Of a DNA stretch of 64,000 bases, positions 24,922 through 52,848 are shown piece after piece. Source of the stretch: Collinsella phocaeensis (GTDB lineage Bacteria > Actinomycetota > Coriobacteriia > Coriobacteriales > Coriobacteriaceae); NCBI RefSeq assembly GCF_900119895.1, contig NZ_FQLR01000003.1, positions 62,001 through 126,000 on the forward strand. Reading direction: 5' to 3'. Each line of letters starts with the position of its first letter. Position 1 is the first letter of the stretch. The notes beneath the pieces are model-generated. The model saw only the letters and a list, made by a program, of their open reading frames with translations, was not told where the DNA came from and ran no database searches. Position numbers and translations under genes: made by a program.

Positions 24922-24998
24922 CGGGTTGTGGCTCAGTTTGGTAGAGCACTGCGTTCGGGACGCAGGGGTCGCTGGTTCAAATCCAGTCAACCCGACCA
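24922..24998 (+). tRNA. tRNA-Pro (anticodon CGG)
   Basis: A 77-base cloverleaf: acceptor CGGGTTG / CAACCCG with A73 and an encoded CCA. The anticodon stem is CTGCG / CGCAG with loop TTCGGGA, and the T-loop is TTCAAAT. The C1-G72 pair and A73 are typical of tRNA-Pro. A perfect TATAAT -10 lies at 24908-24913, directly upstream. Confidence 0.96.
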
Positions 24999-39339: not shown

Positions 39340-40940
39340 CGCGCCATCGCCCCCTCTCGCTTCCACGGCAAACGGAGCCTCGGCCTTTCCGCCTCTTGCT
39401 CTCCCGCCGAACCGTGCCCCGCATCCCATCCCTGGATCGGGCACCCCAGCTCTCTCAACAGGGTGCACGCGAACGACTTGACGCTTTTCCCGAACGCGCC
39501 CGGTGCGACCAGGGCGTCCCCCAAGCGCCCGAACTCGAGCAGCTCGGCCGTCGGCTCTCCCCCGTCGGAGATGCGCACCCTGGACCGCAGCGACACCGCC
39601 ATCTCGAAGCGCAAGGCGCGCTCCTCCCCGCAACCCCGGGCACCGAACCTGTTGAACACACACGTCATCCGAGTCTTGGGCACGCCGATGCGCGCCGCGA
39701 GCCCCACCGCCCGCTGGGCGGACGCCTCGCCCGAAGCGCCGCCCGTGCCCACGACGAGGCACCGGTCGCAGCGAGACACCGCCGATGCCGCCGCATCGCC
39801 CCAGAACACCGAGGTGTCGACAAAGACCACGTCCGCCTCGGTACGCAGGGCCTCTATCAGGTCCTCCGTAGCGGAAGAGACGAGCTCGGCCTTCTCGGGC
39901 TCCTTGCAGGGCCCCCACAGCGTCAACCCGGGGGCCACGCGCATGGCCGTCGCCTCGACGGACTGAGCGCCCGCGAAGGAGCTATCGTGAGCCCCCGTGA
40001 TGCCGCAAAGGTCCACCGCCTCCTCGATACCCATCAGGTCATGCAGGTTTCCAAACATCAGGTCCAGGTCGATCAGTGCCGCCTTAAGGCCCATATGGGC
40101 AGCCATCCACGCCATCGAGGCCGCGATCGTCGTCTTGCCGACCCCGCCCCTACCGGAAATCAGGGTCACGAGCGGCGCTCGCCTGCCCTCGGGAGCAGGA
40201 GGATCCGCCTCATGCCGGCCCGCGCCCCCATCGGGCGCATCGGCGCCATCGCGAACCTGCCCCGCTCTCGCTGCCGCGGGCTCGGAAGATGCCAGCACCT
40301 CGAGCACGGTTTCCGTTCGCTTCGGCGCGACCGGGACCGCGGTCCCGGCGGCATCCGCGCACCCCGCCCCGTCATCCGAACGAGAGCTGAGGACCTCGGC
40401 GGCCTTGTCGCGCTCGGCGGCCTTGTCGCGCTCGGCGCCGGCGCCCAGGACGGCGCGCATCGGGATCACGTCTCCCACCGTCGGCCCGGCGGCACCCGGC
40501 CGGCGGGGCCAAGGGGGCACCCCTTGGTCTCCCCGCGCGGCCACGGATCGCGCACGGGACGCCCGCGAAGACCGACCCTCTTCCGCGCCCACGATATGGG
40601 GCGGCTCCCGTGCACGCGGTGCCTGCACGACCTCCGTCGCCCCGGCGTAGAACATACGGGCGGCCACGCCGGCATCAAGCTCATCCACCATCGCGACGAT
40701 CGACGCGGCTCCCCCGTGCTGAGCGAACGCGCCGATAAGGTCCTCGGCCTCCTCCGTCGCGCCATGCGGGCATATTGCGACCCCGCCCGCGTCGGGTGAC
40801 AGCAGGTCGCGCATCGCGAGCATGACATCCGGCCCATCGCACCGAACCAGCTGCGACCCCGCATCCCGACCGCAGATCTCCCGGCGAACGGAGGCCATGT
40901 CGTCGCTTCCGCACCACGCCAGCCATATCGAACCCATCAT
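39336..40940 (-). CDS. tadZ: TadZ/CpaE-like MinD-family ATPase
   Basis: A 534-residue protein with a deviant Walker A (SGRGGVGKTTIAASMAW) and MinD-like motifs (LIDLDLMFGNLHDLM, DVVFVDTSVFW) in its C-terminal half. This is the localisation ATPase of Tad systems. The N-terminal ~130 residues form an atypical receiver-like domain. A low-complexity linker follows, including a tandem repeat of ERDKAA. The ATG overlaps the cpaB stop (ATGA). Confidence 0.87.
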   Translation of the reverse strand: MMGSIWLAWCGSDDMASVRREICGRDAGSQLVRCDGPDVMLAMRDLLSPDAGGVAICPHGATEEAEDLIGAFAQHGGAASIVAMVDELDAGVAARMFYAGATEVVQAPRAREPPHIVGAEEGRSSRASRARSVAARGDQGVPPWPRRPGAAGPTVGDVIPMRAVLGAGAERDKAAERDKAAEVLSSRSDDGAGCADAAGTAVPVAPKRTETVLEVLASSEPAAARAGQVRDGADAPDGGAGRHEADPPAPEGRRAPLVTLISGRGGVGKTTIAASMAWMAAHMGLKAALIDLDLMFGNLHDLMGIEEAVDLCGITGAHDSSFAGAQSVEATAMRVAPGLTLWGPCKEPEKAELVSSATEDLIEALRTEADVVFVDTSVFWGDAAASAVSRCDRCLVVGTGGASGEASAQRAVGLAARIGVPKTRMTCVFNRFGARGCGEERALRFEMAVSLRSRVRISDGGEPTAELLEFGRLGDALVAPGAFGKSVKSFACTLLRELGCPIQGWDAGHGSAGEQEAERPRLRLPWKREGAMAR

Positions 40941-41638
40941 GCACCTTCCCCATCTCGTGCGCTTCCCTCTGCCCCGACATCATGCTCGGACCCCTCGGCG
41001 CCTTCCGGCGGCGCGGCGGCTCCGGGCACGACGATCGTCACCGTGCCCGCACTCGTCGCAACGAGCACCTCCTTCACCGACGCGGGATCGACCGCCAAGG
41101 TCGCCCACGTCAGCTCCGATGACCGTTCAGCCAGCATGCTCGTGTCGAGCACGGAGGCGGCGCAAAGCCGATCGGCGACAGCGTCACGCGAGACGTAGAC
41201 GTCAACGCGCTCCCCGCGCTCCAACGCTCCGCCGACCGCGTGCTGCGAATCAACCGGCACCGACACCGCGACCTTTCCCGCTGGGACCGCGACGGAGCCG
41301 TCGTCTGCCTGGAAGTAAGCGGGACACAGGACGGCGCCTTTCGGCACGCGCGACGTCACCGGCTTCCCTATGACCTCATCGAGGTCGCGTGTTGCATCGG
41401 ACGGGAGCAGACTCGCGACCCACTCCTCAACCGCCACGTCGGCTTCGCCCAAGCTGTCACCAGGCTCCAGCTCCCGCGTCGCCACGCATACCGACACCAG
41501 GTCGCCGCCGTACCGCGCGAGCACCTCCTGCTGCTCTCGCTCGACCTCTGCGCGCACAGATGAGACGCTTCCCATGGAGATGAGCATTGCAGCGATGCCG
41601 GCAGCCATGCTGACCAGTAGCCTCTTCTTTCGCTCCAT
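40937..41638 (-). CDS. cpaB: CpaB/RcpC-like SAF-domain pilus assembly protein
   Basis: A 233-residue protein with an N-terminal membrane anchor (LLVSMAAGIAAMLISMGSV) and an SAF domain (ATRELEPGDSLGEADVAVEEW, GKPVTSRVPKGAVLC). The CpaB C-terminal segment AVSVPVDSQHAVGGALERGERVDVYV follows. It is first in the Tad operon. No convincing promoter was recognised upstream. Confidence 0.85.
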   Translation of the reverse strand: MERKKRLLVSMAAGIAAMLISMGSVSSVRAEVEREQQEVLARYGGDLVSVCVATRELEPGDSLGEADVAVEEWVASLLPSDATRDLDEVIGKPVTSRVPKGAVLCPAYFQADDGSVAVPAGKVAVSVPVDSQHAVGGALERGERVDVYVSRDAVADRLCAASVLDTSMLAERSSELTWATLAVDPASVKEVLVATSAGTVTIVVPGAAAPPEGAEGSEHDVGAEGSARDGEGA

Positions 41639-41936
41639 ACCGCCCCCCGTCTGTCGCGCAGGCCCATCGCACCGGCCATCCGGCCGATGGGCTCGACTTC
41701 ATTGTGTGCGGGAATCGGAAGCGTCCGCATATCGAAAAAAGAACCTGATCGCCCATCCAACAAACCGCTTTCACCTGGCAAACGGCTTTGTTTGAGCAGC
41801 GCAAGATACATCGCAGCGCCACGCGCCTTCGCGTGCAAAGCGAAACGGGCGCTGCCGCCCGCCCATCTGGACGAACCGCAGCGCCCGCGCGCTCGATATG
41901 GGTGGTGGGAGGTTGCTTCGCCTCAACATGAAGCGG

Positions 41937-41973
41937 GCGCGCCGTGCCAAAAGGGTACGTCCCCTTTGGCACG
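41937..41973. repeat. 37-bp REP-like palindrome, copy 1
   Basis: GTGCCAAAAGGG and CCCCTTTGGCAC form a near-perfect hairpin around TACGT. The whole 37 bases are identical to 51528-51564. Flanking GGGCG/CGCCC pairs extend the stem here. Confidence 0.8.
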
Positions 41974-41976
41974 CCC

Positions 41977-42036
41977 GCCCTCGTTCATGGCCGACGAGCG
42001 GCAAGCTCCTCAATCCCGGCGCATCGGCAACCGCCC
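41977..42036 (-). pseudogene. ~60-bp fragment duplicated from rsgA
   Basis: By hand alignment this block matches 51805-51864 at nearly every position (about five mismatches). On the minus strand it still reads VADAPGLRSLPLVGHERG, the G3 region of RsgA. It has no start, no rest of the gene, and begins 3 bases from a palindrome copy. It is either the last remnant of a second rsgA or a short sequence captured with the palindrome. Confidence 0.75.
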
Positions 42037-42371
42037 GACATGAGAGGGCGCTTTCCCCAGCGAAAGCTGCAATCTCCGCCAAGATGCCCCATGCCACACC
42101 ATGGGAAACACCCCGATCCCAGGAGCACGAGCCCAGCCACCCGCACAGCATGGGCGCTCGCGCAGGTCAAACCGCATTACAAGACAGGTGCGCTCAGGCA
42201 GCAAGTAAAACGCCAGCACAACCGAAAAGCACGCTTGGCAGAGCGCGAATACAAGCCGGCAGCACAAAAAACGGCATCCCATCTATCACGCCCTAGCCAG
42301 AAGCGAGCTTTCGAACGGCGCCCGTTAATCAGATCAGCAGCCCCAAAGACATCGCTTGACGGATGCACCGC

Positions 42372-43082
42372 CTACAAGTCCAGCATGTAGCGCGACCCTA
42401 TGAAATACTGACGACCGATATAGATGGGTTCATCGTTTTGGTCGAGCGCGTAGGTCGTTATGTAGAGCATCGGCTCTCCCGCCGAGATCTGCAAGCGCAT
42501 CGCCCGCGTGCTCGATGCCCCCACGGACTCCACGAGCACGCGCGCGTTCTTGACCGGCCGCCTTCCATATAGGCCGTCCATAAGCCCGTAGATCGATTCC
42601 TCTCCCAGCTCAAGCGTCGCGAGCTCCTTGTTGGAGGAATAAGGCAGATACATGTTCTCCTCAAACACTGGCTGCCCGTCAGCAGTGCGGACGCGCTGGA
42701 TGTGCAGAACCAGGTCGTCCTCGCCCAGCCCGAAAAACTCCTTCTCATCTGAACGCGGAACCACGATCTCACGATCAATCAACTTGGCACCGGGGACGCG
42801 CCCGCTCTTCTCGCAAATATGGGTGAAACTTTCGGGAAGGCCCCCCTGTAACAACTTGCGACGCATGCGCGGTGCGCACACGAAGGTCCCCAACCCACGT
42901 CGCTTAATCAGTATGCCGGCGGTGCTCAGATCCTCGATAGCGCGACGGACCGTGATACGGCTGACCGAGTATCGCTCCGCAAGTTCGACCTCCGTGGGGA
43001 TCTTGCTTCCCGGCGCATACTCCCCCTCGTCGACGGAGCGCTTGATATCATCGTATATCCGCTGGTACAAAGGGGTTTCCAT
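42372..43082 (-). CDS. GntR-family regulator with UTRA domain (HutC subfamily)
   Basis: A 236-residue repressor/activator: N-terminal winged helix (PLYQRIYDDIKRSV, KIPTEVELAERYSVSRITVRRAI) and a UTRA ligand-binding domain (residues ~90-236, e.g. DLVLHIQRVRTADGQPVFEENMYLP). HutC-type regulators bind sugars or their phosphates. The gene follows the PTS operon in the same direction after a terminator and presumably controls it. An alternative GTG start lies at 43091. Confidence 0.88.
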   Translation of the reverse strand: METPLYQRIYDDIKRSVDEGEYAPGSKIPTEVELAERYSVSRITVRRAIEDLSTAGILIKRRGLGTFVCAPRMRRKLLQGGLPESFTHICEKSGRVPGAKLIDREIVVPRSDEKEFFGLGEDDLVLHIQRVRTADGQPVFEENMYLPYSSNKELATLELGEESIYGLMDGLYGRRPVKNARVLVESVGASSTRAMRLQISAGEPMLYITTYALDQNDEPIYIGRQYFIGSRYMLDL

Positions 43083-43292
43083 CAGTCTCACATCCACCCT
43101 CGAACAACAGGCCAAAACGAAAGCACGATAGGGCGGCAAGAGCTTTTTGAGACGCCCCCCCCCCGATATCCCTTATCTGGGAGTCTACCACTCGTTTCCC
43201 CATCACACAGTACGCCGCTGGGATGGTCGATGGCATGCCCGCACGTGACATTATTTGGTCTATAACCTCATACATTGCGTCACATAAGAAAA

Positions 43293-43322
43293 GGTGCCGC
43301 ACAGCCGCAGCCATACGGCACC
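43293..43322 (-). terminator. Terminator of the PTS operon
   Basis: Arms GGTGCCG / CGGCACC with a 16-base loop, followed by TTTTCTT on the minus strand. It lies 28 bases past the last gene of the operon. The remaining 43083-43292 shows no gene. Confidence 0.75.
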
Positions 43323-43349
43323 CCACCGCAACGGCGAACGGAAGCGTCC

Positions 43350-44321
43350 TTACGCCACCGCCTCGGTGATCTCCAGTCGCTCAAGCTCCGCATCAAGCGT
43401 CGCGATATCTTCATCGGAAAGCTGCCAGTCGAAGGCGGCGCAGTTCTCAACCGCCTCTTCGACCTTGCGAACGCCGGTGAGTGCCGTGGTCACGAAACTC
43501 TTCTGCGTGCTCCAATTAATAGCAATCTGTGCAAGGGGCTTCCCATACTTCTCGCTGAGCGCGTCCATAGTCTTCAGGAACTCCTGAATCTTGGAGAACA
43601 TCGGCTCGCGATAGAAGGGATAGAAGGTCGCGCGGAAGTCCTTCTCGTCGAAAACGGGCTTTTCGCGGACAGATCCGGTGAGAATGCCGGCGCCGAGCGA
43701 GCCCCAGGTCATGACATCGATGTCATGCTCCTCGCACCACTTGAGATCAGCGATAGCCGACTGATTCACCATGGAAAAAGGAAGCTGGACGATGTCGAGG
43801 TCCGCCACAGCGGAGGCACGCTCGATGAGGGCACGATCGGAGTTGCACAGTCCGAGCATCTTTACGGATCCCTGCTCTTTAAGCTTATTGACGCACGCCA
43901 TGGTGTCCTCGATGGGCGTACCCAGGTCGTCCGGCCAATGCATGAGATACATATCTACGTAATCGGTGCCCAGACGACGCAGAGAGTCGTCAAACTCGCG
44001 CAGCACCGAATCGGGACGGCTGCAGTGGACGCCCTTGCCATCCTCAATGTAGGAACCGTACTTCGTGGCAATGAGCACCTGATCTCGGATTCCCTCGACC
44101 GCTCGGCCAACAACTTCCTCGGAGTGGCCCTCGCCGTAAATAGGGGCGGTATCGATAAGGTTCACACCGCCTGCGATCATGGCACGAATCGCCTCAACGG
44201 ACTGGTCGTCATCGATCTCGCCGTAACCGCCCCCCATGCTGTTCTTGCCGCCAATGGCCCATGTACCGACCGTGATCTCGGAAACCTTCTGGCCGGATTT
44301 CTTCATAGTCTTGTAACGCAT
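43350..44321 (-). CDS. Aldo/keto reductase
   Basis: A 323-residue NAD(P)H-dependent TIM-barrel oxidoreductase. The catalytic tetrad is visible: Asp and Tyr in NLIDTAPIYGEGHSE, Lys in LIATKYG, His in YLMHWPDD. The cofactor loop WGSLGAGILTG is present. It is the last gene of the PTS operon, 6 bases after the zinc dehydrogenase. It probably works on a sugar or polyol intermediate. Confidence 0.9.
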   Translation of the reverse strand: MRYKTMKKSGQKVSEITVGTWAIGGKNSMGGGYGEIDDDQSVEAIRAMIAGGVNLIDTAPIYGEGHSEEVVGRAVEGIRDQVLIATKYGSYIEDGKGVHCSRPDSVLREFDDSLRRLGTDYVDMYLMHWPDDLGTPIEDTMACVNKLKEQGSVKMLGLCNSDRALIERASAVADLDIVQLPFSMVNQSAIADLKWCEEHDIDVMTWGSLGAGILTGSVREKPVFDEKDFRATFYPFYREPMFSKIQEFLKTMDALSEKYGKPLAQIAINWSTQKSFVTTALTGVRKVEEAVENCAAFDWQLSDEDIATLDAELERLEITEAVA

Positions 44322-44327
44322 AATCGA

Positions 44328-45371
44328 TTACGCCTCCTGGCACTGGACGCTGATACGGAACATACCGGGCTCGCACGCGCGCTCGAACGCATGCTGAATC
44401 TGAGAGAGCGGGAGCTTCTCCTCAACAAGCTCGGAGAAATCGGCCACGCCCATGTTGATCATGGCCGCCGCCTCGCGGAAATCCTGGGCGTCGGCGCCGT
44501 AGCTACCCACGATGACCATACGGCGATAGTGGATGGTGTTGGGGTCGAGACTCCACGTGGGCGCAGGGTAGCCCGCCGCGAAGATAAGCAGATGGGCGCG
44601 CTTCTCCTTGGCCATCTCGAGCGCCTGGGCGTATGCGCCGGAGGCACCCACCGCGATGATGACGCCGTCGGCGCCCTTGCCGCCGGTGAGCTCCTTGACC
44701 TTCTCGACCGGGTCGCAGGCGGAGACGTCGATGGCCTCGAGGCCCAGGCGGCGGGCCGCCTCAAGCTTCTTGGGCATCATCTCAGTGATGAGCACGCGGC
44801 AACCATGCGCCTTGGCAACAAGTGCGTTCAAGATGCCCATGGTGCCAGCGCCGATAACCACGACGGTATCGCCATAGCTTACGCCGAAGCGGCGGAAGCC
44901 GGCGCAGCAGGTGCCCAGAGGCTCCAGCAGGGCCGCCACGGAAGGATCGATGCCCTCGTCGATCTTGTAGCAGGCGACCTCCTTGGCGACCGCGTAGTTC
45001 GCGCAGCCGGCGTTGCCAAAATACCCGTCCGGGTTGGGATGGTCAGCGCTCTGGAGCTTGGTGCACTCACTCGTGCGGCCCTCGCGGCTGGGCTCGGAAT
45101 ACGGGTCGTACTGGTAGCCGCTCGCAACGTAATCGCCCACCTTCACGCTCTCGACCTGGGCGCCGACCTCCATGACGGTTCCGGCCCACTCGTGACCGAA
45201 CGTCAGGGGAAGCGGGCGCTTGCGGGCCCCGTTGAAGGCTCCGTACTCGGAAGTGCAGATGTTGTTCGCATCCACCTTGACGAGCACGTCGTGGTCGCCG
45301 AGCTCGGGAAGCTCGCGATCGATGACCTCGGCCTGCTCAACTGCCGTCAGGACGGCTGTCTTTGCTTTCAT
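44328..45371 (-). CDS. Zinc-type medium-chain alcohol/polyol dehydrogenase
   Basis: A 347-residue MDR enzyme with catalytic-zinc ligands in NNICTSEYGAFNG (Cys), LTFGHEWAG (His-Glu) and LLEPLGT (Glu). The Rossmann loop is VVIGAGTMGILNAL. The lobe that holds the structural zinc in most relatives (four spaced Cys) lacks those cysteines here (DPYSEPSREGRTSEC). Probable substrate: a polyol phosphate. GAGGAACC precedes the ATG; I rejected a longer frame starting at 45392. Confidence 0.9.
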   Translation of the reverse strand: MKAKTAVLTAVEQAEVIDRELPELGDHDVLVKVDANNICTSEYGAFNGARKRPLPLTFGHEWAGTVMEVGAQVESVKVGDYVASGYQYDPYSEPSREGRTSECTKLQSADHPNPDGYFGNAGCANYAVAKEVACYKIDEGIDPSVAALLEPLGTCCAGFRRFGVSYGDTVVVIGAGTMGILNALVAKAHGCRVLITEMMPKKLEAARRLGLEAIDVSACDPVEKVKELTGGKGADGVIIAVGASGAYAQALEMAKEKRAHLLIFAAGYPAPTWSLDPNTIHYRRMVIVGSYGADAQDFREAAAMINMGVADFSELVEEKLPLSQIQHAFERACEPGMFRISVQCQEA

Positions 45372-45397
45372 AGGTTCCTCATTCCAATCCAAAAGGT

Positions 45398-46561
45398 TTA
45401 TCTACGTGCTATATCTGCATACTGCTTGACAACGAGATCGAGCAGAATCCAGTCGTCATCGGTAAGGCCGCACACCTCTTTGGCGAATGCGCAGACGGCG
45501 GCGTCTTCGAGCTCCACATCGCGCTCGCGTGCAAGGCACGCGAGACCGTATGCGATACCGCGCGCCAGGTAAAACGGCACGATTCCGTGGTCCAGGCACA
45601 TGAGCGCCGGCCCGACGAAACGGTTCTCGCGGGAGAGCTTCTCGTCCATCTTCGCGATGACGCGCTCCACCGGGTCGCGAACGTCGGCGTCGAGCTTTGC
45701 CGTGATGAAGTCCACCCACTCGGCGTCCTCGTCGGCGTCGTAGTCGTACTCCTGCAGTACCGCCGCGTGTGCCTCCTCGAAGGCACCCACGATGTTCGCG
45801 CGAATCCACGGGTCGCGATGGCAGTCGCAGATGTACTCGAGGCCCGCCATGCGGCCCATGAAGCCGGCCATCGCGTGGCGCATGTTGCCGCAGTAGACCT
45901 TGCGGTAGATGAGCCCTTGCGCGCCGGCCGCGTACACGACGCCGTCAACCGCAAGCCGCTCCCCCTTCCAGGCATCGGCGTCGATCTCGAGACCGGGATT
46001 CGCCGATACCACGACCTGCCACGGGTTCGCTCCCGCCTCGCTGGGGATGCCAGCGGCGAGCACCATGACCTGGCACACGCCCACATGGGCATCGAAGTAC
46101 GCGGCACCGGCCTCGCCGAGCTCTGAGAGGATAAGGTCCGACACCTTGGCCGGCGCGCCGAGAGCGTTCACGCACAAAAGCACGTTGAGGTCGCGCTCGC
46201 AGCCACTCGCCACGCGAGCCTCGATGGCCCGGGCGACGACATGGGCGATGCTCGCAAACGCCCCCTCGTACACACAGCACGCCGCGATGTCGACGTCCTG
46301 GAGCAGCTCGACGATCTCGTCGTCTTCCGAGCTGTCAACGATAGAGAAGCCATCGATGCGGTAGCGCTCGTCGACGTCGTGGCCGTCGGTCACGCGCGCT
46401 TCGTAGTAGCCCTGTGCCTCAAGCTGCCTCATGCCCTCCATGTACATGTCATACAGGTACAGGCGGTATCCCGCGCGGGAGAAGAGGAGTCCCACGACCC
46501 CTCTTCCGATCTTTCCCGCACCGAGGATCGCGACCCGCTTCTCCGAACGATTCGTATCCAT
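45398..46561 (-). CDS. Mannitol-1-phosphate 5-dehydrogenase-like protein
   Basis: A 387-residue polyol-specific long-chain dehydrogenase. The N-terminal Rossmann motif is VAILGAGKIGRGVVGLLF. The C-terminal helical domain carries the catalytic region HGIVPFYLARGIAYG and CGNMRHAMAGFMGR. Members oxidise sugar-alcohol phosphates with NAD. It belongs to the PTS operon and suggests the transported compound is a polyol or is reduced to one. Mannitol itself normally uses a different PTS class, so that substrate is unlikely. Confidence 0.85.
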   Translation of the reverse strand: MDTNRSEKRVAILGAGKIGRGVVGLLFSRAGYRLYLYDMYMEGMRQLEAQGYYEARVTDGHDVDERYRIDGFSIVDSSEDDEIVELLQDVDIAACCVYEGAFASIAHVVARAIEARVASGCERDLNVLLCVNALGAPAKVSDLILSELGEAGAAYFDAHVGVCQVMVLAAGIPSEAGANPWQVVVSANPGLEIDADAWKGERLAVDGVVYAAGAQGLIYRKVYCGNMRHAMAGFMGRMAGLEYICDCHRDPWIRANIVGAFEEAHAAVLQEYDYDADEDAEWVDFITAKLDADVRDPVERVIAKMDEKLSRENRFVGPALMCLDHGIVPFYLARGIAYGLACLARERDVELEDAAVCAFAKEVCGLTDDDWILLDLVVKQYADIARR

Positions 46562-46583
46562 AGTCCGATCCTCCTCGCAAACC

Positions 46584-47423
46584 TTAGGCGATAATGCCGA
46601 GCATGCTGAGGGCGACGCCCACGATCAGCAGACCGAGCAGCAGCGGAACGACGTTGACCTTCTTCTTGCCGATCAGCCAGTAGCACAAAAGGACCAGGCA
46701 GAGCGGCAGGATCTTGGGGCAAACGGTGTCGAAGAGAGCCTGAACCATAGTGGGGTCGCCACCGGCGGCGTTGGGAATGGTGAGCGCGGTCGTGAGGTTC
46801 ACGTTGAACGCGGTCATGGCGCCGATGGCGGCGAGTCCGATCACGGAGGCGGCATAGGAGATCTTCTCCATGATGCCGGAGGACTCCGCCTGCTCGAGCA
46901 GCTTGGTGCCCATCCGGTAGCCGCTCTTGAGGGTCACCCAGCGGGTGATAAGCTGGGGGATGTTGAAGATCAGCATGAACAGGATGGGGCCGGCGATGTT
47001 GCCCGCGGACGCCATGGAGATGACCACGGCGGTGGCGATGACGCGCAGCGTGGCATGGAACACCGTGTCGCCGATGGCGGAGAGCGGTCCCATGAGGGCG
47101 GTCTTGATGCCCGTGATGGTCGAGGTGTCGAAGTCGGGATCCTGGGCGTTCTGCTCCTCCATGGCGAGGACGACGCCGAGCGGCAGGCCGCCCACGTACG
47201 GGGTCACGTTGAAGTACTCGCTCATGTGGCGGGTATAGGCCTCGACGCGTTTCTCCTTGTTGTCGGCGTAGATCTTCTTGAGGGCGGGGATCATCGCGTA
47301 GGTGAAGCCCGCGTGCATCTGGCCGGGATAATCGTTCATGCCGTTGAGGTGGACATAGCGGCCGTAGATCTGACGAAGGTCGGCATCGGTGAGCTTGCCG
47401 GTCGTGGTCTCGTTAGAACTCAT
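46584..47423 (-). CDS. PTS mannose/fructose/sorbose family IID component
   Basis: A 279-residue membrane protein with the IID pattern (LTDADLRQIYGRYVHLNGMNDYPGQMHAGFTYAMIPAL, LMGPLSAIGDTVFHATLRVI) and hydrophobic C-terminal helices. IIC and IID form the channel. The ATG at 47423 lies inside the 3' end of IIC, so translation is coupled; an ATG at 47429 is possible. Confidence 0.93.
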   Translation of the reverse strand: MSSNETTTGKLTDADLRQIYGRYVHLNGMNDYPGQMHAGFTYAMIPALKKIYADNKEKRVEAYTRHMSEYFNVTPYVGGLPLGVVLAMEEQNAQDPDFDTSTITGIKTALMGPLSAIGDTVFHATLRVIATAVVISMASAGNIAGPILFMLIFNIPQLITRWVTLKSGYRMGTKLLEQAESSGIMEKISYAASVIGLAAIGAMTAFNVNLTTALTIPNAAGGDPTMVQALFDTVCPKILPLCLVLLCYWLIGKKKVNVVPLLLGLLIVGVALSMLGIIA

Positions 47424-48192
47424 TGTCATCACCCATATCCACAGTCGAAGCGGCAGAAGTCTTCTCATCGCGGGCAAAGATGATGAGCGCGACGGCGAAG
47501 GTCGCCAGAAGCGTTACCGCGATGACGGGGAGCTGCAGGTAGGCAGCAAGAATGAAGCCGATGAAGAACCAGGGGGCAAGCTTCTTGTCCATGATCATCG
47601 TGAGCAGGAGCGCGAAGCCCACGGCGGGAAGCAGGTTGCCGCCGGAAGCGAGGCCGTTGATGACCTGCGTGGGGATGGCGGCGACGGCCGCCTCGAGCGC
47701 GGAGCTGCCGAAGAAGACGCCCAGAAAGCCGATGAGGAAGTACAGGCCGAAAGTTCCGATCCAGCTGCCGGCCCAGAAGAGCGCACGGGCGGCCTTGTCG
47801 TTATCCTTCGCGAGCTGCGCCTTCATGGCCTCGGCGAAAGCGTTGTTGATGAACTTGCAGAGCACGAACGCGAAGCCGCCCAGGAGCGCCAGCGGCACGG
47901 CGAACGCGGTACCCACGGCCGCGCCGGCGCCGGTGATGATGGCGAACGCAGTCGAAACGCCCGCAGCGGTACCGCCATCGGGCGAGACGGCCGCCCCGAC
48001 GGGGAACGAACCCAAAAAGACGATCTCCAGCGTGGCTCCGATGATCGTACCCGTCACGGGATCGCCTAGGACAAGGCCCATGAGGGCGCCTTCGACGATC
48101 GGTCGATTGAGCATGTTGTAGCCGAAGAAGTAATCCATCTTCGAGATTCCGACCACGAGGCCGGCAAGCAGAGCTTGAATCAGCATCAACAT
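47413..48192 (-). CDS. PTS mannose/fructose/sorbose family IIC component
   Basis: A 259-residue polytopic protein with the family start LIQALLAGLVVGISKMDYFFGYNMLNRPIVEG and the GATLEIVFLGSFPVGAAVSPDGGTAAGVS segment, the IIC signature. The ATG at 48192 overlaps the stop of the isomerase gene; GAGAGG lies 6 bases upstream. Confidence 0.93.
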   Translation of the reverse strand: MLMLIQALLAGLVVGISKMDYFFGYNMLNRPIVEGALMGLVLGDPVTGTIIGATLEIVFLGSFPVGAAVSPDGGTAAGVSTAFAIITGAGAAVGTAFAVPLALLGGFAFVLCKFINNAFAEAMKAQLAKDNDKAARALFWAGSWIGTFGLYFLIGFLGVFFGSSALEAAVAAIPTQVINGLASGGNLLPAVGFALLLTMIMDKKLAPWFFIGFILAAYLQLPVIAVTLLATFAVALIIFARDEKTSAASTVDMGDDNEF

Positions 48193-49016
48193 TCACATCC
48201 TCTCAAGGTTGTCAGTGCGCGCGAGAGCACGTCCCGCGGCCTTTCGAAATATGAGGGCTTGGTCATTTCCAGCGCCGCGTCCCCCGTGTAGCCGGCGCAT
48301 GCAAACCGGCGCAACAGGTCTTGCGGGTCCAGACCGCCCAGCCGGTCCCCCCAGGCCAGATGGGCGAATATGTCGCGGTTGAGGTTCGTGAGGTGCACGT
48401 ACCCCAACTCGCTACCGAAACGGGACAGGTACGCGTCGATGTCCTCGCCGTTGCGGACGACGGTACCCGTGTCGATGGTTGCGCCAAGATTCGGCTCGCC
48501 CACATCCGAAAGCGCGGCACCCAGTGATTCCAAGCTCGTGACCAGGCGGTACGGCTTGTCCACCAGGGTTTCCAAGGCGACGGTCAATCCCTCTTCCGCC
48601 GCCGCGCGGCAAATCTTGCCGAGCATGGAGACCATGGCGTCCCACGCGCGATCCCGATCGGCATCGAAGGGAAACCAGCCCGCGTTGAGCGAGATGCGCT
48701 CCGCCCCGAGCGTTGCCGCCAGGCGCACGATCTGCCGGTAGTAGCAAAGCGTGAGACGCCGGATCTCCCCGTCTTGAGACGCCACGTTGTAGGCTTTCGG
48801 ATTGCCCTGCTCGGGCGTGAGCGTCACGGCACGCAGCCCGTGCCGGCGCATGCCCCGCGCAACCTCATCGGCGTTGTACGCCCCGTGGGCGTCGATGTTC
48901 ACGTGGTTGTTGCACAGCCACAGGTCGACATCGCGCACCCCCAGAGCGCTCACGTCCTCGAGGAACTCCTCGAAGCTCCAGTAGCGCCAAATCTGGTTGG
49001 TCGGGAGCATGCGCAT
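48186..49016 (-). CDS. Sugar phosphate isomerase/epimerase (AP-endonuclease 2 TIM barrel)
   Basis: A 276-residue xylose-isomerase-like barrel protein. The metal ligands appear in ISLNAGWFP, VALETLVDKPY (Glu), TIDTGTVVRNGED (Asp), and GYVHLTNLNRDIFAHLAWGDG-type loops. It likely isomerises or epimerises the sugar intermediate before the aldolase. It lies between aldolase and IIC genes, overlapping IIC by 7 bases. Confidence 0.85.
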   Translation of the reverse strand: MRMLPTNQIWRYWSFEEFLEDVSALGVRDVDLWLCNNHVNIDAHGAYNADEVARGMRRHGLRAVTLTPEQGNPKAYNVASQDGEIRRLTLCYYRQIVRLAATLGAERISLNAGWFPFDADRDRAWDAMVSMLGKICRAAAEEGLTVALETLVDKPYRLVTSLESLGAALSDVGEPNLGATIDTGTVVRNGEDIDAYLSRFGSELGYVHLTNLNRDIFAHLAWGDRLGGLDPQDLLRRFACAGYTGDAALEMTKPSYFERPRDVLSRALTTLRGCEC

Positions 49017-49029
49017 GGGAATCGAGCCC

Positions 49030-49890
49030 CTAGGCCTTGTCGACGCAGCCGAACACGTTCATGTAGTGCATGAGCGCGCTCTTGTAGGCCTCGGCACCGA
49101 AGAGGTCGTACTGCCAGGAGCTGATCTTCTTCTTGTCCGGGTCGACGTCCGGCGCGTAATCGGCCTCGATCTGGTCCTTGACGGCCATGTTGGAGGCCTG
49201 CGAGAGATCGGTCCAGAGGTTCACCTTCTGGATGCCGCACTCGATGGCATGTGCGATGAGATCGTCGCCGGTGCCGGAGCCGCCATGCAGGACCAGCGGG
49301 ACGTCGACGCTCTCGGCGATGGTCTTGAGCAGGTCGAACTCCAGGTGCGGAGTCCCCTTGTAGGCGCCATGGCTGGTGCCCACGGCGACCGCCAGGCAAT
49401 CCACGCCGGTGGCCTCGACGAACGCCGCGGCCTCCTCGGGATGGGTGAGACCGGCATCACGGGTCTCGGCGTACTCGTTGCCCTGACCCACATGCCCAAG
49501 CTCGGCCTCGACGGACATGCCCACAGCATGCGCGATCTTGACGACTTCGCAGGACTCCTCGACGTTCTGCTCGTACGGCAGCGTGGAGCGATCGACCATG
49601 ACCGAGGAGAAGCCGGAACGGACGGCACGGATAATATGCTCAAAAGGACCACCGTGATCGAGGTTCAGCGCAAAGGGAACCTGCGGGAAGCGGCGCTCGT
49701 AGAAGCGAGCGAGCTCACCCATCTCCTCGATGCCGAACACGCCGGGAACTCCCAGGATAACTGGCGAATTGAGCTCTGCGGCCGCCTGAAGGCACGCTTC
49801 CATGGTGAAACGGCTGTACACGTTGGGGGCGGGAATGCCGTATCCGCCCTTCTTGGCCTCCTGCAAAAGCTCATGCATCGGCTGTAACAT
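49030..49890 (-). CDS. Class II ketose-bisphosphate aldolase
   Basis: A 286-residue zinc aldolase of the FbaA/GatY/KbaY family. The motifs are LNLDHGGPFE (zinc His and catalytic Asp), VEAELGHVGQGNE, AVGTSHGAYKG and LHGGSGTGDD. It cleaves a ketose-1,6-bisphosphate to dihydroxyacetone phosphate and an aldehyde. In this operon the natural candidate is a tagatose- or other hexulose-bisphosphate. The bisphosphate-making kinase is not in the window. Confidence 0.9.
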   Translation of the reverse strand: MLQPMHELLQEAKKGGYGIPAPNVYSRFTMEACLQAAAELNSPVILGVPGVFGIEEMGELARFYERRFPQVPFALNLDHGGPFEHIIRAVRSGFSSVMVDRSTLPYEQNVEESCEVVKIAHAVGMSVEAELGHVGQGNEYAETRDAGLTHPEEAAAFVEATGVDCLAVAVGTSHGAYKGTPHLEFDLLKTIAESVDVPLVLHGGSGTGDDLIAHAIECGIQKVNLWTDLSQASNMAVKDQIEADYAPDVDPDKKKISSWQYDLFGAEAYKSALMHYMNVFGCVDKA

Positions 49891-49929
49891 AATGAATACC
49901 CTCTTCCTGTTATGACGCCCTCGCGTCGC

Positions 49930-50391
49930 TTATCGGTACAGTTCCTTCTTCTCGGTGGGAACCTGACGAATCTCGAGTTCGATTCCGCGTCCGGCCAGCT
50001 CGTGCAGCATTTCCTCTTCCTCGGGAAGCAGGAAAATCGCCTGAGCGACCTGACGGGACCCTTCGCGGTTCTTGATGCCGCCAAGGTTGACGCTCTCGAT
50101 CTGCGGGCATGCATCGCAGATACGCTTGGCATCGGCAACGCTGCCGGTGACGATGAACAGCTTGTATTTATCGGTGACACCGCTGTTGAGCGCCTTGATG
50201 CTGTCGTCGATCGTCTTGATGACGAGCTTCACGCCCTGGGGCTTTGCCAGACGCAGCGTCGTCATCTTGAGGCTGTTCGTGGCGGCATCGTCGTCGGCGA
50301 CCAGAATGCAGTCCGCGCCGATCGTCTTCGTCCACGAGAAGGCGACCTGACCATGCAGCAAGCGATGGTCGATACGTACGAGCTCGATCAC
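49930..50391 (-). CDS. PTS mannose/fructose/sorbose family IIB component
   Basis: A 153-residue cytosolic IIB with the phosphorylation site His13 in VRIDHRLLHGQVAFSW. The GTG start has AAAGGAG 7 bases upstream. It transfers phosphate from IIA to the incoming sugar at IIC/IID. The gene is separate from IIA, unlike the fused IIAB of the mannose system. Confidence 0.93.
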   Translation of the reverse strand: MIELVRIDHRLLHGQVAFSWTKTIGADCILVADDDAATNSLKMTTLRLAKPQGVKLVIKTIDDSIKALNSGVTDKYKLFIVTGSVADAKRICDACPQIESVNLGGIKNREGSRQVAQAIFLLPEEEEMLHELAGRGIELEIRQVPTEKKELYR

Positions 50392-50412
50392 TTTCCGGCT
50401 CCTTTCGTTTGC

Positions 50413-50838
50413 TTAAAACTCTTCCGCTTCGTCCTGCGCCGCACCGTTCGCCAAATCGGTGCAAAGGACGATGTGCTCCTTGGCGCGCTCCACGATGCGG
50501 GGAAGCTCTGCCGCCAGGCTCTCAGCCGGGCATGCAGCGACCTCGATTAGAAGAGCGAGATTGAGGCCAGTCACCAAGTGAAAGCTGTACGTGTCCAGCA
50601 GGCCCATGAACTCGTTGTTCACCGAGCCACCGAGAACGTCCGTCATAACGACCAGCTCGGAGTTCTCATAATCGTGTTCAGCGACGATCCTCTTGAACTC
50701 CTCGGAGTAATCCATCGACGGATCCACGTACGCCGTCACATATTCCACGGGCACCGCATCGCCGAAAATCATGTTGAGCGATGTCTTGATGCCCTTGGAA
50801 AACTCGCCATGCGTGGCAATCACAATCCGTTTGTCCAA
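50413..50838 (-). CDS. PTS mannose-family IIA component
   Basis: A 141-residue IIA with the active-site His10 in IVIATHGEFSKGI and the usual alpha/beta fold (LVVMTDVLGGSVNNEFM). I chose the TTG at 50838 because GAGGAGG lies 8 bases upstream. The in-frame GTG at 50847 is embedded in that Shine-Dalgarno sequence. It is the first gene of the operon. Confidence 0.9.
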   Translation of the reverse strand: MDKRIVIATHGEFSKGIKTSLNMIFGDAVPVEYVTAYVDPSMDYSEEFKRIVAEHDYENSELVVMTDVLGGSVNNEFMGLLDTYSFHLVTGLNLALLIEVAACPAESLAAELPRIVERAKEHIVLCTDLANGAAQDEAEEF

Positions 50839-50906
50839 CCTGTTCACCTCCTCAACTGCTCGCCGTCCCCGCGTGGGCAGCCTCGGCTGCTCACGTTTTA
50901 TCTGTA

Positions 50907-50928
50907 ACGTAATATACGTCTATTACGT
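50907..50928. promoter_or_regulatory. Candidate operator of the PTS operon
   Basis: A perfect inverted repeat ACGTAATA-n6-TATTACGT lies about 70 bases upstream of the IIA start. The size and AT-rich arms suit a GntR/HutC dimer. A TATATT that could serve as the -10 lies within it on the minus strand. Confidence 0.6.
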
Positions 50929-51170
50929 CCTAGATGTTTTGTGGTTGTATGCTACGCCGCGAACGGTTGCATCGACTCGCCGAACGGTTCACGACAACTC
51001 GCTGGGCTCATTGCGGCGGCATTCGCAAAAGCGCCCGACGGTGAAAACGCGCACAGACAAGATGCCGATGCCCCCGTAAAGGAGGTAACTTCGCTCGAAG
51101 CAGTTAACAGAGAGCTCTACTGACACGTCGTCATATGGCGCGATTAACATGGATCCGCATGTGATGCAAA

Positions 51171-51527: not shown

Positions 51528-51564
51528 GCGCGCCGTGCCAAAAGGGTACGTCCCCTTTGGCACG
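51528..51564. repeat. 37-bp REP-like palindrome, copy 2
   Basis: Identical over all 37 bases to 41937-41973 and located 38 bases beyond the rsgA stop. Immediately after it the CTGTCCCCTTTGGCGCG half-motif repeats. Confidence 0.8.
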
Positions 51565-51601
51565 GACCTGTCCCCTTTGGCGCGCCCGTAGGCCCGAGAC
51601 G

Positions 51602-52789
51602 CTACAGCTGCACGTCCGGGTCGAGGCTTTGCGCGCTCACGCGCATCTCGTTCGCCAGCGCCAGGAACGCGTCGAGGGCGGCCTCGTCCACCGAGCCGTC
51701 CGTCACGGCCTCGCGCAGCGCGCAACCCGGCTCATGCGTGTGGGTGCAATCGCGGAACCGGCAGGACCGGGACGCCTCGACGATCGCGGGGAACGTCTGG
51801 GCGAGCCCTCGTTCGTGGCCGACGAGCGGCAGGCTCCTCAATCCCGGTGCATCGGCGACCACCCCGCAGGGCGCAGGCAGCGCCACCATGACGCGCGCCA
51901 CCGTCGTGTGGCGGCCCATGTCGTCGCGCTCGCGCACGCCGCCGGTCTCGAGCGCCTCGTGGCCCAGCAGCGCGTTGAGCAGCGTCGACTTGCCGGCCCC
52001 GGATTCCCCCAGGATCATCGCGCAGGACCCGGCGGGAATGCTCGCGCGCACCTCGTCCAAGCCGGAGCCGGTCGCCGCGGACGTCGCGATGATACGGACG
52101 CCTTCCCCCACAACGCGCGCCACCTCGCCGCGCAAACGCTCGACCTCCGTCGAGCCCACGCGATCGGACTTGGTGAACACGACGACGGGTTCGGCCCCGC
52201 AATCGTTCACGAGCACGAGCGAGCGGGCGATACGGTCGATCATCGGCGCATCGGAACGGTCGGCGCCGAGTGGCTGCACGATGAAGATCGTATCGACGTT
52301 CGCCGCGAGGACCTGGCGCTCGCCGCGGTTCTTCCCGCGCCAGCGCGCAAACGAGGTCCGTCGCGGTAGCACGCACTCGATGACCCCCATGTCGTGGCCG
52401 TCCGGCACGCGGACCGCCACGGCGTCGCCCACGGCCGGCAGCAGGCGCTCCTCCTCACCGCGCGTCTTCGCGAAGGTCACCGCGTGCTCCGCGCGAAACG
52501 TCGCGCCCTCGGTTGCCACCAGGGGGAAGCCTCGATCCAGGCGCACCACGAACCCCATGCAAAGCTCCTCCGCCGAGACGGGGTCGGAAGCGGCCGCCTC
52601 CTCGACATACGAGCGAAACGCGGCGCGCTGGCGGTCATCGGACTTGAGGTCCGCAAACGACGGGACATCCTTCAGGGTGTCCAGGCACGGCAGGTCGCGG
52701 GCAAGCTCTGAGACGTCGCGCGCGGCGGCGACCTCGCGGCGGCGACGCACCCTCTGCTTCGTCTTGCCCTTTGCCTTGGCCTTTCCCAT
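51602..52789 (-). CDS. rsgA: Ribosome small-subunit-dependent GTPase RsgA
   Basis: A 395-residue circularly permuted GTPase that checks 30S maturation. After an N-terminal basic stretch and an OB fold, the motifs come in permuted order: VFTKSD (G4), GESGAGKSTLLNALLG (G1), DAPGLRSLPL (G3). A zinc motif CRFRDCTHTHEPGC follows. It is about 90 residues longer than typical because of the N-terminal extension MGKAKAKGKTKQRVRRRRE and the helical part after it. Part of its G3 coding region is duplicated at 41977-42036. Confidence 0.94.
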   Translation of the reverse strand: MGKAKAKGKTKQRVRRRREVAAARDVSELARDLPCLDTLKDVPSFADLKSDDRQRAAFRSYVEEAAASDPVSAEELCMGFVVRLDRGFPLVATEGATFRAEHAVTFAKTRGEEERLLPAVGDAVAVRVPDGHDMGVIECVLPRRTSFARWRGKNRGERQVLAANVDTIFIVQPLGADRSDAPMIDRIARSLVLVNDCGAEPVVVFTKSDRVGSTEVERLRGEVARVVGEGVRIIATSAATGSGLDEVRASIPAGSCAMILGESGAGKSTLLNALLGHEALETGGVRERDDMGRHTTVARVMVALPAPCGVVADAPGLRSLPLVGHERGLAQTFPAIVEASRSCRFRDCTHTHEPGCALREAVTDGSVDEAALDAFLALANEMRVSAQSLDPDVQL

Positions 52790-52848
52790 GCGGACCCCTC
52801 TCTGATCAGACGAAGCCCAGTGTAGCGCAAGGAAAGCGCCGGTGCGCT

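Follow-up and report, generated by a model that had tools for sequence, protein, structure and literature searches.

Our analysis revealed a likely relic of the 3′ end of the ribosome-assembly gene rsgA in the stretch of 64,000 nucleotides analysed here (the window). The stray block in question lies beside a homologue of the Flp-pilus gene cpaB, in what would be the ancestral place of rsgA, and was probably duplicated when a ten-gene sugar-PTS operon entered between the two genes, and later shortened by 240 bp. Its identification as a relic is well supported, and we infer the recombination route from the arrangement of the pieces. Read along the minus strand, the order in the window is rsgA, a 37-bp repeat (REPa), the operon, the rsgA piece, a second copy of the repeat (REPb) and cpaB, i.e. 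a complete copy, an insert and a partial copy in direct orientation. With this arrangement an odd sequence observation becomes a readable scar, in which both the former rsgA site and the incoming DNA are legible.

The stray block and intact rsgA

Intact rsgA is an open reading frame on the minus strand (51602-52789) that Pfam identifies as RsgA (RsgA_GTPase). Beyond its stop codon, at a distance of 37 bases, lies REPa (51528-51564, plus strand), which is letter for letter the same over 37 bases, and in direct orientation, as REPb (41937-41973, plus strand) at the stray site. Identity between the two sites ends at this repeat on both sides. The piece next to REPb (41977-42036, minus strand) aligns without gaps to 51805-51864 in the G3 region of rsgA, about residues 309-328, with 55 of 60 bases identical. 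At intact rsgA the two segments are separated by 240 bases (51565-51804), at the stray site by 3 bases. A first-pass annotation of this DNA had described identical palindromic segments, a near-copy of the G3 region of about 60 bp, and spacings of 3 and about 240 bases, and our measurements agree with it on all of these points.

The match of the stray block to rsgA is far beyond chance. When the 60-bp block was searched against its own genome (G000; 2,105,457 bases in 4 contigs), the sole other match was rsgA itself (E 3.2e-18; 40 of 65 first-look candidates scored). A query covering 51590-52800 returned the stray fragment at E 1.8e-17 and the next best match only at 9.6e-5 (40 of 219 candidates scored), and tblastn on the stray site recovered RsgA residues 308-330 at E 6.5e-7. 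The block is thus significantly similar to rsgA and much shorter than the gene. It had been suggested at first pass that many rsgA-like blocks beside palindromes would speak for a mobile unit; we looked for such blocks in the own genome and they were absent among the scored candidates. A mobile unit is ruled out, because this search did not yield a second copy.

The rsgA-cpaB neighbourhood in relatives

Using the RsgA protein as query, we compared the best 80 of 516 relatives' loci. In 74 of these 80, from related Coriobacteriia, cpaB is located next to rsgA on the same strand, with a gap between the protein matches of 194-1998 bp (median 299); of the remaining six loci, two break off no more than 528 bp from rsgA and four are without a cpaB match. 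As in the window, rsgA is preceded by a P-type ATPase gene in many of the best 80 loci and by an oxidoreductase gene in 5 of them. Other species, represented by one genome each, suggest what the empty site without the operon would have looked like.

In the window, rsgA and the cpaB/rcpC homologue (40937-41638, minus strand; Pfam RcpC and SAF), its ancestral downstream neighbour, are 9.96 kb apart with a complete sugar-PTS operon between them. It is the relic and REPb that adjoin cpaB, with 298 bp between REPb and the cpaB start, which is near the usual gap in relatives. The relic has the sense of rsgA, the order of relic and repeat is the same as at the gene, and the repeat is found on the side that follows rsgA, so that the position and orientation of the relic are those of rsgA in relatives. 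The 732-bp gap between cpaB and the operon matches 6 of 42 other genomes of the genus, with one match each (G027, G028, G029, G032, G036 and G040), and these matches are situated 0.45-0.74 kb from cpaB, the expected place of rsgA.

For the spacer at 41640-41976 we detected no similarity to the rsgA-cpaB spacers of relatives other than short scattered matches. It was dismissed as a sequence-recognizable ancestral spacer, and its assignment as ancestral rests on position. No homology was established for the stretch from the relic to the operon end (42037-42371), for which the own-genome search returned, besides itself, one 23-bp match. This match (window 42072-42094 to G000:C1:736295-736317, 96% identity, E 0.002) falls within an open reading frame that appears membrane-protein-like by eye; it is too weak to indicate templated filler.

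Neither an integrase nor a transposase nor a tRNA came to light at the insert among open reading frames of at least 80 amino acids, with Pfam applied to eight of the ten operon proteins, and with Rfam; at gathering scores Rfam gave only two tRNAs in the window, at 24922 and 31932. The insert is not classed as an integrase- or tRNA-linked genomic island, because none of these was recognised at its boundary.

The inserted sugar-PTS operon

The insert (42372-50847, minus strand) comprises ten genes, listed as GntR regulator, aldo/keto-reductase-like, alcohol-dehydrogenase-like, mannitol-dehydrogenase-like, PTS IID, IIC, TIM-barrel protein, class II aldolase, PTS IIB and IIA. Eight of the ten products are named by Pfam (GntR/UTRA regulator, mannitol-dehydrogenase-like protein, PTS IID/IIC/IIB/IIA, TIM-barrel protein and class II aldolase), while the aldo/keto-reductase-like and alcohol-dehydrogenase-like proteins were named by eye from their translations. 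Upstream of the PTS IIA gene, at window 50905-50930, we noticed a GTAATATACGTCTATTACG-like motif, and by eye G013 and G014 show similar motifs in the corresponding position; it may be an operator of the operon's GntR regulator.

The operon occurs sporadically. Matches of at least 72% to the mannitol-dehydrogenase-like protein were found in 3 of 43 genomes of the genus, G000 included (the match in G038 is at 25%), and matches at E ≤ 1e-60 in 4 of 65 genomes of the family. The ten genes recur in unchanged order in G013, G014 and G059. The operon has a PrmC gene on one side and a release-factor gene on the other in G013, adjoins a PrmC gene in G059, and in G014 is near a gene that by eye is ferrous-iron-transport-like. 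With the operon elsewhere, rsgA and cpaB are still adjacent in G013 (gap of about 344 bp) and in G014 (about 299 bp).

When G000 is compared with G013, nine of the ten operon proteins share at least 70% identity (range 59-90%), as against 63% for RsgA, 51% for CpaB and 54% for CpaE. This contrast would fit a horizontal spread of the operon. However, it is weakened by the neighbouring ATPase, which is also well conserved (77% in L052). The GC content is 0.55-0.66 inside the insert but 0.59-0.67 also at 53.5-58 kb, and thus the insert is not clearly marked off by composition.

Direct repeats flanking the operon

The two flanks of the operon were compared in the same direction, genome by genome, and reversed controls gave nothing below 0.04. 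In G000 the flanks carry the 60-bp and 37-bp direct repeats described above (E 1.8e-20 and 4.7e-15). We found 76 bp at 87% in G059 (E 1.2e-21), 31 bp at 87% in G013 (E 2.2e-6) and 24 bp at 83% in G014 (E 0.014). As a control, 347 overlapping placements were made along the window alone, leaving out 6 that overlapped the real pair; none of the 347 reached 2.3e-6, 9 reached 1e-4 and 26 reached 0.01. Judged by these 347 placements, the G014 repeat is at control level and the G013 repeat just beyond it. Flanking direct repeats of unrelated sequence are therefore clear in three of the four operon genomes, although narrowly so in G013.

In G013 the repeat is a terminator-like hairpin, present at either end of the operon (L165:5756-5786 and L165:14504-14534) with 27 of 31 bases alike. 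Its own-genome matches at E ≤ 1 are four, namely itself, its counterpart at the far end of the operon (1.9e-4) and two weaker matches (0.0023 and 0.68). In G059 the repeat (L174:4131-4204 and L174:14418-14493) encloses the operon together with an AAA-ATPase gene, and as the contig ends inside the 76-bp repeat, this repeat may be multi-copy. A palindrome with GGGGACGTACC arms was observed in G014 at L166:5205-5275, adjoining the operon end and similar in style to the window repeat.

A repeat-linked relocation of the operon is plausible from these comparisons. A further-reaching proposal, which we put forward as a rather doubtful one, is that the ten genes form a recombinase-less cassette moving among Coriobacteriaceae, which would enter at repeats 3′ of host genes and leave direct repeats and sometimes a piece of the host gene. 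With the same reserve, its entry points might be the REP after rsgA in G000, the terminator hairpin after the release-factor gene in G013 and the longer repeat in G059. If this were true, the identical direct pair of REPs could also allow a precise exit of the operon. In other Coriobacteriaceae the same operon is bordered by different direct repeats, and this offers a case on which integrase-free relocation of metabolic operons can be tested.

A family of REP-like repeats

At first pass the repeat had been called a 37-bp palindrome. This applies to its 29-base core (41944-41972), an imperfect palindrome that folds into a hairpin (z -5.4 for REPb and -3.7 for REPa), but the whole 37-mer is not a perfect palindrome, eight bases being outside the core. 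The own genome contains 19 copies with no more than 3 mismatches in the 29 bases, against 0 for a reversed control pattern. REPa and REPb are the only two of the 19 with zero mismatches, and further copies match at about 92-93% over 37 bases. At up to 3 mismatches the repeat is absent from 64 other genomes of the family, and thus present in 1 of 65 (only G000) and in 1 of 43 within the genus. An inverted second copy is found 44 bp off in 6 of 21 loci examined; such inverted pairs resemble REPIN pairs.

By eye, no GTAG or CGTC end tag was noticed in 21 copies, CGTC being seen only mid-repeat. The sole Y1-type transposase of the genome at the Pfam threshold is encoded at G000:C1:1412437-1412769 and has an internal TAA. 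This IS200-like gene, examined in L146:1600-2960 (G000:C1, about 1412100-1413460), has the TAA in frame and is flanked by GGGACAGGCAC repeats that are unlike the repeat beside rsgA, of which no copy was found at up to 7 substitutions in the surrounding 4.5 kb. The name REP-like is used here for the repeat, without assigning it to a REP/RAYT system. Titles and the starts of abstracts in the literature gave no account of such repeats in Collinsella, and the genus is unmentioned in passages of PMC3733652 and PMC12306157.

Proposed course of events and age of the relic

The ancestor would have had the order rsgA, REP repeat, about 300 bp and cpaB, as in relatives apart from the REP. The entry of the sugar-PTS segment between these two genes might then have been duplicative, like a single crossover within the 3′ end of rsgA or within the REP. 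A single crossover is expected to leave the inserted DNA between one complete and one partial copy of the gene that both partners share. Here the product would be intact rsgA, REPa, the operon, a partial rsgA copy, REPb and cpaB, so that one event could account for both insertion and duplication. The redundant partial copy would later have lost 240 bp, comprising the rsgA C-terminus and the second repeat arm, leaving the G3 piece 3 bp from REPb. The duplicated segment was presumably longer than the 60 bp of rsgA that are left. A junction formed by collapse of a tandem repeat arm was also considered; it is possible with one mismatch and not decisive.

Of the two readings offered by the first-pass annotation, a second rsgA that decayed with an internal deletion agrees with our data in that the fragment occupies the position of rsgA in relatives and 240 bp are missing before the palindrome. 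A full second gene is unnecessary, however, since a duplicated 3′ end suffices. The other, a palindrome-linked rearrangement, is possible as a route, as the segment has the same palindrome, in direct orientation, at both of its ends. The first-pass annotation had missed the explanatory part, which is the PTS operon between rsgA and cpaB.

The event appears to be recent in this lineage, because the 64 other genomes of the family lack the repeat at the above threshold. Four of the five differences between relic and gene are synonymous in the RsgA frame (p 0.029 for at least four of five by random substitution), and therefore part of the change seems to have arisen in a functional gene, the resident gene after duplication or possibly a donor's allele. 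The V to A change lies in the relic, as all of the best 80 relatives have V or I, and the GCG to GCA change probably occurred in the intact gene (GCA in 2 and GCG in 26 of the 80 relatives). The mean identity to relatives is 41.2/57 for the relic and 43.0/57 for the gene, which does not single out the older copy. Finding no difference over the 37-bp REPs, given 5 over 97 bases, has a p of 0.085 under one age, and a common age of REPs and relic is thus acceptable, if not comfortable.

Alternative explanations

A route in which the relic is donor DNA would make the deletion at this site superfluous. An incoming molecule that carried one REP and a decayed piece of rsgA along with the operon would have crossed over within the REP downstream of rsgA, and both the end of identity at the limits of the 37-bp repeat and the 8% difference of the relic, mostly synonymous as between two functional alleles, are in keeping with such repeat-to-repeat integration. 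It nevertheless requires an unseen donor in which an rsgA piece was already joined to a REP, while the 64 other family genomes are without the repeat, and we regard it as unlikely. Tandem duplications are common in bacteria in general, and a duplication of the rsgA 3′ end that came before a later and independent entry of the operon between the copies would yield the same final order. Merodiploids made by transformation are described in passages of PMC3784515. This course invokes two events where one is enough, and we give it a still smaller chance than integration from such a donor.

The multi-copy nature of the palindrome family and the presence of one Y1-type transposase gene in the genome could also bring to mind a REP-linked transposase process that captured the rsgA piece and dropped it at the stray site, the operon being unrelated. 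Yet the piece sits in the own ancestral place and orientation of rsgA, a second captured block was not found in the own-genome searches, and the Y1 gene is interrupted by an in-frame TAA, with the repeat missing from the surrounding 4.5 kb. Transposase-driven capture is rejected on this position and because no matching transposase was found, and we assign it hardly any probability. An equally slight chance is given to retention of the relic for a function, e.g. as a short peptide or regulatory RNA. The excess of synonymous differences and an open reading frame of 126 codons (41771-42151), which is in the RsgA frame and spans the relic, could be taken as hints of this kind. However, the relic has the same sense as rsgA and hence is not antisense to it, and the gap has its single matches in only 6 of 42 other genomes of the genus, at the expected place of rsgA. 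Rfam at gathering scores proposed nothing but the two tRNAs in the window, and the one non-synonymous change departs from the V or I of all 80 relatives. These searches gave no sign of a function for the relic. The rsgA piece is most likely an evolutionary scar, rather than a working element.

Comparison with known systems

Dispersed REP and REPIN sequences with RAYTs (PMC3733652; PMC3116915) resemble the repeat described here in being short multi-copy imperfect palindromes that fold into hairpins. The GTAG and CGTC repeats and their RAYTs in the passages of PMC3733652 differ from it, since our repeat was found without a transposase gene that it flanks and without an evident GTAG or CGTC end tag. 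Variable segments with flanking direct repeats, and palindromic units among variable loci, are reported in PMC2884548. As in the window, conserved neighbours at those loci stand with or without a segment between them, and direct repeats mark the limits of that segment. Here, by contrast, the repeat takes in part of the adjoining gene, and different species were compared instead of strains. PMC3240628 deals with homology-facilitated illegitimate recombination and single crossing-over. Integration by a single crossover shares with the window a complete and a partial gene copy around inserted DNA, whereas here the partial copy is down to 60 bp and the donor is hypothetical. The finding fits these known kinds, and represents a real genome scar that is ordinary in kind and no new kind of element.
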